DNA from: a virus
DNA length: 27,149 nt
IMG/VR virus record: IMGVR_UViG_3300040771_000520
Coordinates: 1 to 27,149 of that record
Strand: one strand, 5' to 3'
How positions within the stretch are numbered: the stretch's first letter is position 1; every line of letters begins with the position of its first letter. The notes under the pieces were generated by a model that was not told the origin of the DNA, did not search any database, and worked only from the letters and a program-made list of their open reading frames with translations. Of the stretch, positions 2,382-2,572 are shown in pieces. The position numbers and the translations under genes were made by a program.

Positions 2382-2407
2382 AAATATACAAATAAACTGT
2401 ATATTTG
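2382..2407 (+). promoter_or_regulatory. Candidate Bacteroidetes promoter overlapping an inverted repeat
   Basis: TATATTTG at 2400-2407 matches the Bacteroidetes -7 consensus TAnnTTTG. It overlaps a perfect 9-bp inverted repeat, AAATATACA (2382-2390) with TGTATATTT (2398-2406). No TTG sits at the ideal -33 spacing; the nearest is at 2371-2373, too far upstream. Transcription would begin about 2413, at the 5' arm of the RNA stem described next. The repeat could be an operator. Confidence 0.55.
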
Positions 2408-2410
2408 CCT

Positions 2411-2527
2411 TGACCAATCATTTTAAAAACGAAGAGTGCGCTCTGTTAAGATTCTTAACACGGGAGTTCTCAGGTTTCGGGTAGCGTGAAAAAAACGTCC
2501 GGCTTCATTCTTCGTGATGATTGGTCA
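2411..2527 (+). ncRNA. Candidate structured RNA or leader with long end-to-end pairing
   Basis: TGACCAATCAT (2411-2421) pairs perfectly over 11 bp with ATGATTGGTCA (2517-2527). Just inside, ACGAAGAGTG (2429-2438) pairs with CATTCTTCGT (2506-2515) over 10 bp with one G-U. The enclosed part contains a 7-bp hairpin, TGTTAAG (2444-2450) with CTTAACA (2454-2460), and GC-richer sequence than the surroundings. A -7 box lies directly upstream. A compact hairpin (2536-2548) follows, then the gene at 2573. It may be a separate small RNA or the regulated leader of that gene. I cannot match it to a known family; 6S-like and ribozyme-like possibilities were considered without support. Confidence 0.5.
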
Positions 2528-2572
2528 AACCGTAAAGGGGACTCCCCTGTTCTGGATTTTATACCAATAATT

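Follow-up and report, generated by a model that had tools for sequence, protein, structure and literature searches.

Lysogens of P1 owe part of their immunity to the C4 RNA. In P1 and P7 the processed RNA of about 77 nt, released by RNase P, binds its target mRNA; its b' loop masks the ribosome-binding site, and specificity comes from a' (PMC5320573). The elements of P1 follow the order promoter, a1, b1, C4, a2, b2 and icd, and within C4 itself the second hairpin carries b' in its loop and is followed by the linker that contains a'. The C4 motif was listed from Proteobacteria and phages by Weinberg et al. 2010 (PMC2864571), and the C4 clan of Rfam (CL00128) includes the families C4 (RF01695) and c4-2 (RF02944).

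A structured RNA gene between two tail genes

The window is an IMG/VR virus record of 27,149 nt from a Flavobacterium phage. Between two tail genes of this phage a small RNA is encoded behind a promoter of its own, and the structured RNA at 2411-2551 is real. The features of the locus are as follows.

2400-2407, + strand: -7 box TATATTTG of a sigma-A promoter (TAnnTTTG, conserved spacing)
2411-2421, + strand: 5' arm and a1-like target site TGACCAATCAT, complementary to 2517-2527, kept in homologues and placed as a1 in P1
2429-2438, + strand: second 5' arm and b1-like target site ACGAAGAGTG, complementary to 2506-2515 and ordered as b1 in P1
2439-2461, + strand: linker hairpin TGTTAAG/CTTAACA, an alternative to the closing stem, with pairs that change on both sides
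2462-2471, + strand: 5' strand of the closing stem GGGAGUUCUC with an optional extension at 2457-2460; compensatory changes, 94% of cells paired
2473-2477, + strand: inner helix GGUUU, partner AAACC at 2527-2531, equivalent of GG/CC then UAAA in c4-2
2478-2501, + strand: first inner hairpin CGGGUAGCGUGAAAAAAACGUCCG, an inner pair changed from G-C to U-A; resembles the c4-2 consensus GGGUAGCG-GAAA-CGCCC
2505-2520, + strand: second inner hairpin UCAUU-CUUCGU-GAUGA, its loop (2510-2515) the b' antisense; folds in the core alone and is placed as the b' hairpin of P1 C4
2521-2527, + strand: a' antisense linker UUGGUCA, complementary to 2411-2417 and placed as a' of P1 C4
2537-2546, + strand: 3' strand of the closing stem GGGGACUCCC, also in a local hairpin (2537-2547), with an optional extension at 2548-2551; compensatory changes
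2563-2577, + strand: candidate target site ACCAATAATTATGGA spanning the start codon, pairing with 2511-2525 at 14 of 15 positions (duplex -13.1 kcal/mol, p 0.07)
2573-2827, + strand: 84-aa winged-helix-like gene, probably the regulated gene, conserved in 10 loci
2847-2872, + strand: intrinsic terminator ending the unit; a similar hairpin and T-run follow the gene in L004, L007, L012 and L019

The original prediction had placed a -7 box, two arm pairs and a 7-bp hairpin here, and every one of these coordinates was correct. The box, proposed to start the RNA at its first arm, was supported, and TAnnTTTG stands at a constant distance ahead of that arm in every homologue as well as in the divergent loci L030, L031 and L052. 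In F. johnsoniae the last G of the -7 box lies at -5 (PMC6847099), so the start predicted from the sequence, G2412, falls at the first arm. The segment was also described as richer in GC than its surroundings, and 2411-2551 does have a GC content of 45%, while the genes on either side are at 29-30% and the whole window at 35%. A 131-nt stretch folds at -45.2 kcal/mol compared with -28.8 +/- 3.5 in dinucleotide shuffles (z -4.7), none of 200 shuffles being as good, and the 3' limit of the RNA at about 2551 lies beyond the boundary first proposed. A scan of the window against Rfam gave no match, whether at the gathering score or relaxed to E<=10, and a tRNA/tmRNA search found none.

Promoter, RNA and stems are kept at seven homologous loci, namely L002, L004, L007 and L039 from virus records, L003/L010 from F. 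kayseriense, L012 from a Flavobacterium MAG and L019 from genome G317. The L010 copy is in the genome of F. kayseriense F-47. Three further candidates (L009, L011 and L013) were chance motif matches and were rejected. No homologue of the RNA was found among GenBank phages and PLSDB plasmids, and the R2 search of 397 genomes of the family returned only the already known genome. The arms 2411-2421/2517-2527 are perfectly complementary (11/11 pairs), and the stem 2429-2438/2506-2515 has 10 pairs, one of them G-U, with two pairs changed on both sides among homologues. Across homologues 93% of cells in the arm stems are paired, against 42-50% when the strands are slid; pairing is kept in all of them, with 8 pairs changed on both sides against a shuffle mean of 3.7, so that the arms do not vary without compensation. 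No exact arm pairs were found elsewhere in viral contigs, and the rest of the window has no more copies of a1 than chance would give.

Compensatory changes and the shuffle test contradict a chance inverted repeat. A coding region could be suspected in that the frame of the gene at 2573 is open upstream in the window, and in a short ORF from 2517 the window and L019 differ by changes that look synonymous. Across the loci, however, that frame has no common start codon and meets stops at -9 to -120 (-93 in L002, L003 and L012, -9 in L039), on which grounds a protein encoded across 2486-2572 was rejected, and the short ORF from 2517 is frame-shifted in L004 and L039. A coding or chance origin is thus highly improbable.

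A conserved closing stem and the C4 domain order

In every homologue 2457-2471 (AACACGGGAGUUCUC) is complementary to 2537-2551 (GGGGACUCCCCUGUU), with compensatory changes from C-G to U-A and from A-U to G-C. The proportion of paired cells in this helix falls from 94% to 43-64% when the strands are slid, and per-sequence shuffles gave p values of about 0.0005-0.01 for all eight sequences. The 10-bp helix 2462-2471/2537-2546 had been overlooked in the original prediction. It closes a core of about 85 nt (2462-2546) that encloses two hairpins, and the core alone adopts the C4 topology in the homologues tested. The full helix 2457-2471/2537-2551 and the 7-bp hairpin of the linker (2444-2450/2454-2460) exclude each other, and therefore the fold first proposed, about 117 nt closed by the long arms, is only one of two states. 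With the shorter helix as the conserved closing stem, the arms once taken as such are antisense and target in the C4-type reading.

Mutually exclusive helices might also indicate a leader acting in cis, in which expression of the gene at 2573 is set by a ligand or protein that selects one of the two states; a riboswitch-like switch was indeed the first reading of these helices and was dropped after the c4-2 matches described below. The linker hairpin together with the local 3' hairpin (2537-2547) excludes helix 2462-2471/2537-2546, both exclusive helices are conserved, the RNA always lies shortly upstream of a small gene, and the 3' hairpin of L030 runs into eight U residues in the manner of a terminator. 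Arms and core, however, keep their complementarity although their sequences are almost wholly different in L030, in L052 and in the window type, which fits antisense action better than a ligand pocket. Riboswitch families gave no match, nor did any cis-regulatory (riboswitch or leader) family of Rfam, and the C4 domain order and the c4-2 matches also speak against such a switch, which is an unlikely explanation. The locus also differs from type III toxin-antitoxin systems, with their tandem repeats upstream of a ToxN-like toxin: there is one copy, and the downstream protein is without a Pfam or PADLOC match.

The element is instead probably a C4-type phage antisense RNA. As in P1 and P7 (RF01695), the order is promoter, a1, b1, core with b' and a', and small gene, and the core likewise has a closing stem, a hairpin, a second hairpin with b' in its loop and an a' linker, at 85 nt against about 77 nt in the C4 clan. 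The loop at 2510-2515 (b') is complementary to b1 at 2429-2438 and the linker at 2521-2527 (a') to a1 at 2411-2421, and a1 begins UUGAC both in P1 and in the window. In contrast to P1 and P7, the window arms are 10-11 nt each, with 21 bp paired as against 7 plus 7, exact copies of a2 and b2 before the gene were not found in the window, and the host is Flavobacterium with a TAnnTTTG promoter. Nor does an icd or ant gene follow the RNA in the window, in contrast to the icd/antirepressor operon controlled in P1.

The likeness extends to c4-2 (RF02944), whose 10-bp closing stem corresponds to helix 2462-2471/2537-2546 and not to the long arms. The inner helix GGUUU/AAACC followed by GUAAA stands where c4-2 has GG/CC and then UAAA, and the c4-2 hairpin GGGUAGCG-GAAA has its equivalent, although the window has a longer A-rich hairpin loop and the 5' internal loop CA in place of UAU. 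The core begins with GG like the described RNase P site (PMC5320573), which proves nothing.

Divergent relatives and matches to c4-2

In genome G393 a divergent RNA (L030) occupies the same slot with the same promoter position and architecture, and its arms are new sequences that still pair (TTTGACTTACCGTTT/AACGGTAAGTCAAA). Genome G311 carries two copies of another type, L031 (5835-6000) and L052 (1434-1610), sister C4-type RNAs with different arms lying 15 kb apart on one contig. Downstream of each copy lies a related gene about 93 aa long, of a type that was found in just one genome, and upstream lies a P22-type antirepressor gene (P22_AR_N), which is intact at L031 and split over two frames at L052 (747-1267).

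In a relaxed Rfam scan c4-2 was the best match of both L052 (38.8 bits, E 3.7e-7) and L030 (24.5 bits, E 0.0038), against a cut-off of 41, whereas window-type sequences (the window and L003) gave no C4 or c4-2 match at E<=10 and none of this type reached the gathering score of the C4 clan. The converse search used a covariance model, R3, trained only on the eight window-type cores. With filters off, its two top-scoring places were the c4-2 sites of L052, at 18.2 bits, and of L030, at 15.9, whereas background over about 53 kb reached 12.2 at best. In L031 and in a 4-kb stretch of P1 it also picked the C4-type RNA as best match (11.8 and 10.4), both scores being at background level and not significant alone. 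With default filters none of these four was found. In sequence the window cores are only marginally similar to the consensus of c4-2 (p 0.02-0.36), and the C4-type placement is made because of the domain order, the core topology and the direct c4-2 matches of the syntenic relatives.

The RNA is so diverged from known C4 that Rfam misses the window type. The original prediction could not place the element in a known family; it is true that no Rfam family reaches threshold, but the RNA most likely belongs to a known kind, being placed as C4-type by its order, its topology and the c4-2 matches of its relatives. Since the architecture and antisense layout are those of C4, and the Rfam threshold and the P1 gene context are lacking, we file it as C4-type but divergent, most likely with the C4 mode of action, and not as RF01695 or RF02944.

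The downstream gene and a proposed route to repression

Immediately downstream of the RNA comes the 84-aa gene in the window, L002, L003, L004, L007, L012 and L039, and a gene of 91-92 aa in L019 and L030. The 84-aa protein belongs to no Pfam, PHROGs or PADLOC family. Its AlphaFold model (pLDDT 87.5) places winged-helix proteins at the top of the fold list with Z at most 7.5, from which a winged-helix-like product is predicted, such Z values being below the level that shows kinship. A distant homologue of the protein is encoded by Polaribacter phage Leef_1 (MT732473, 104-352), where no such RNA was seen adjacent, and a gene of this type can therefore occur without the RNA.

Beyond the candidate site in the window, where complementarity is weaker, the start codon in L003 shows 15/15 contiguous pairs with the antisense (-10 to +5, p 0.004), and pairings of 8 bp occur in L030 (p 0.018) and L019 (p 0.024). 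Start-codon pairing was unsupported in L004, L007, L012 and L039, and the combined p value over seven representatives is about 0.016. As the antisense is able to pair across that codon, we propose that the small gene downstream is repressed: judged from these complementarities, which are good in some phages and poor in others, the RNA most likely represses the winged-helix-like gene at 2573. That gene had been suggested as a partner of the RNA; it is linked and is the first gene downstream, but its likely role is that of target and not of partner.

The neighbour might instead be incidental, the RNA being a stand-alone molecule that forms an RNP or acts in trans on host genes. It has its own promoter and a 5' end inside a stem, and the adjacent gene varies (84, 92 or 93 aa). 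Against this, no terminator separates RNA and gene, and the antisense strand matches the start regions of downstream genes in several phages, so that this explanation appears quite improbable.

For the C4-type reading we propose that the host promoter would start a transcript at about 2412 carrying, in order, the a1 and b1 target sites, the core of about 85 nt and the small winged-helix-like gene. The 10-bp stem would close the core, exposing b' in the hairpin loop and a' in the linker, and the core would probably be cut from the transcript, as by RNase P in P1. Once freed it could act in trans, pairing with newly made transcripts both at a1/b1 and across the small gene's start codon, and would so keep that gene off in the lysogen; a1/b1 would represent a further binding site in the precursor.

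In the relatives L054, L056 and L057 the next conserved gene comes almost immediately after the tail gene, and the slot of the RNA is therefore an accessory position. Just before the RNA in the window lies a gene for a SHOCT-domain protein (1849-2343) behind its own upstream terminator (1792-1811); it is an accessory insert, also present before the RNA in L003, L004, L012 and L039 and absent in L002 and L007. The slot, upstream of the tape measure gene, carries other cargo in relatives (L030, 5493-6088; L058, 1645-2291), examples judged by eye being a HicA/HicB-like pair and a DNA-methylase-like gene.

Tentatively, and with somewhat less than even confidence, these RNAs may represent a distinct branch of the C4-type immunity RNAs, belonging to Flavobacterium phages and relocated to a cargo slot between tail genes. 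Its antisense arms would vary by phage, with several specificities and two copies in one genome, and it would guard a small winged-helix regulator and not an antirepressor. If the C4-type reading is true, a version of C4 with longer arms that vary among relatives would give Flavobacterium phages a testable RNA immunity or lysogeny switch, and the 84-aa winged-helix-like protein would become a candidate regulator.
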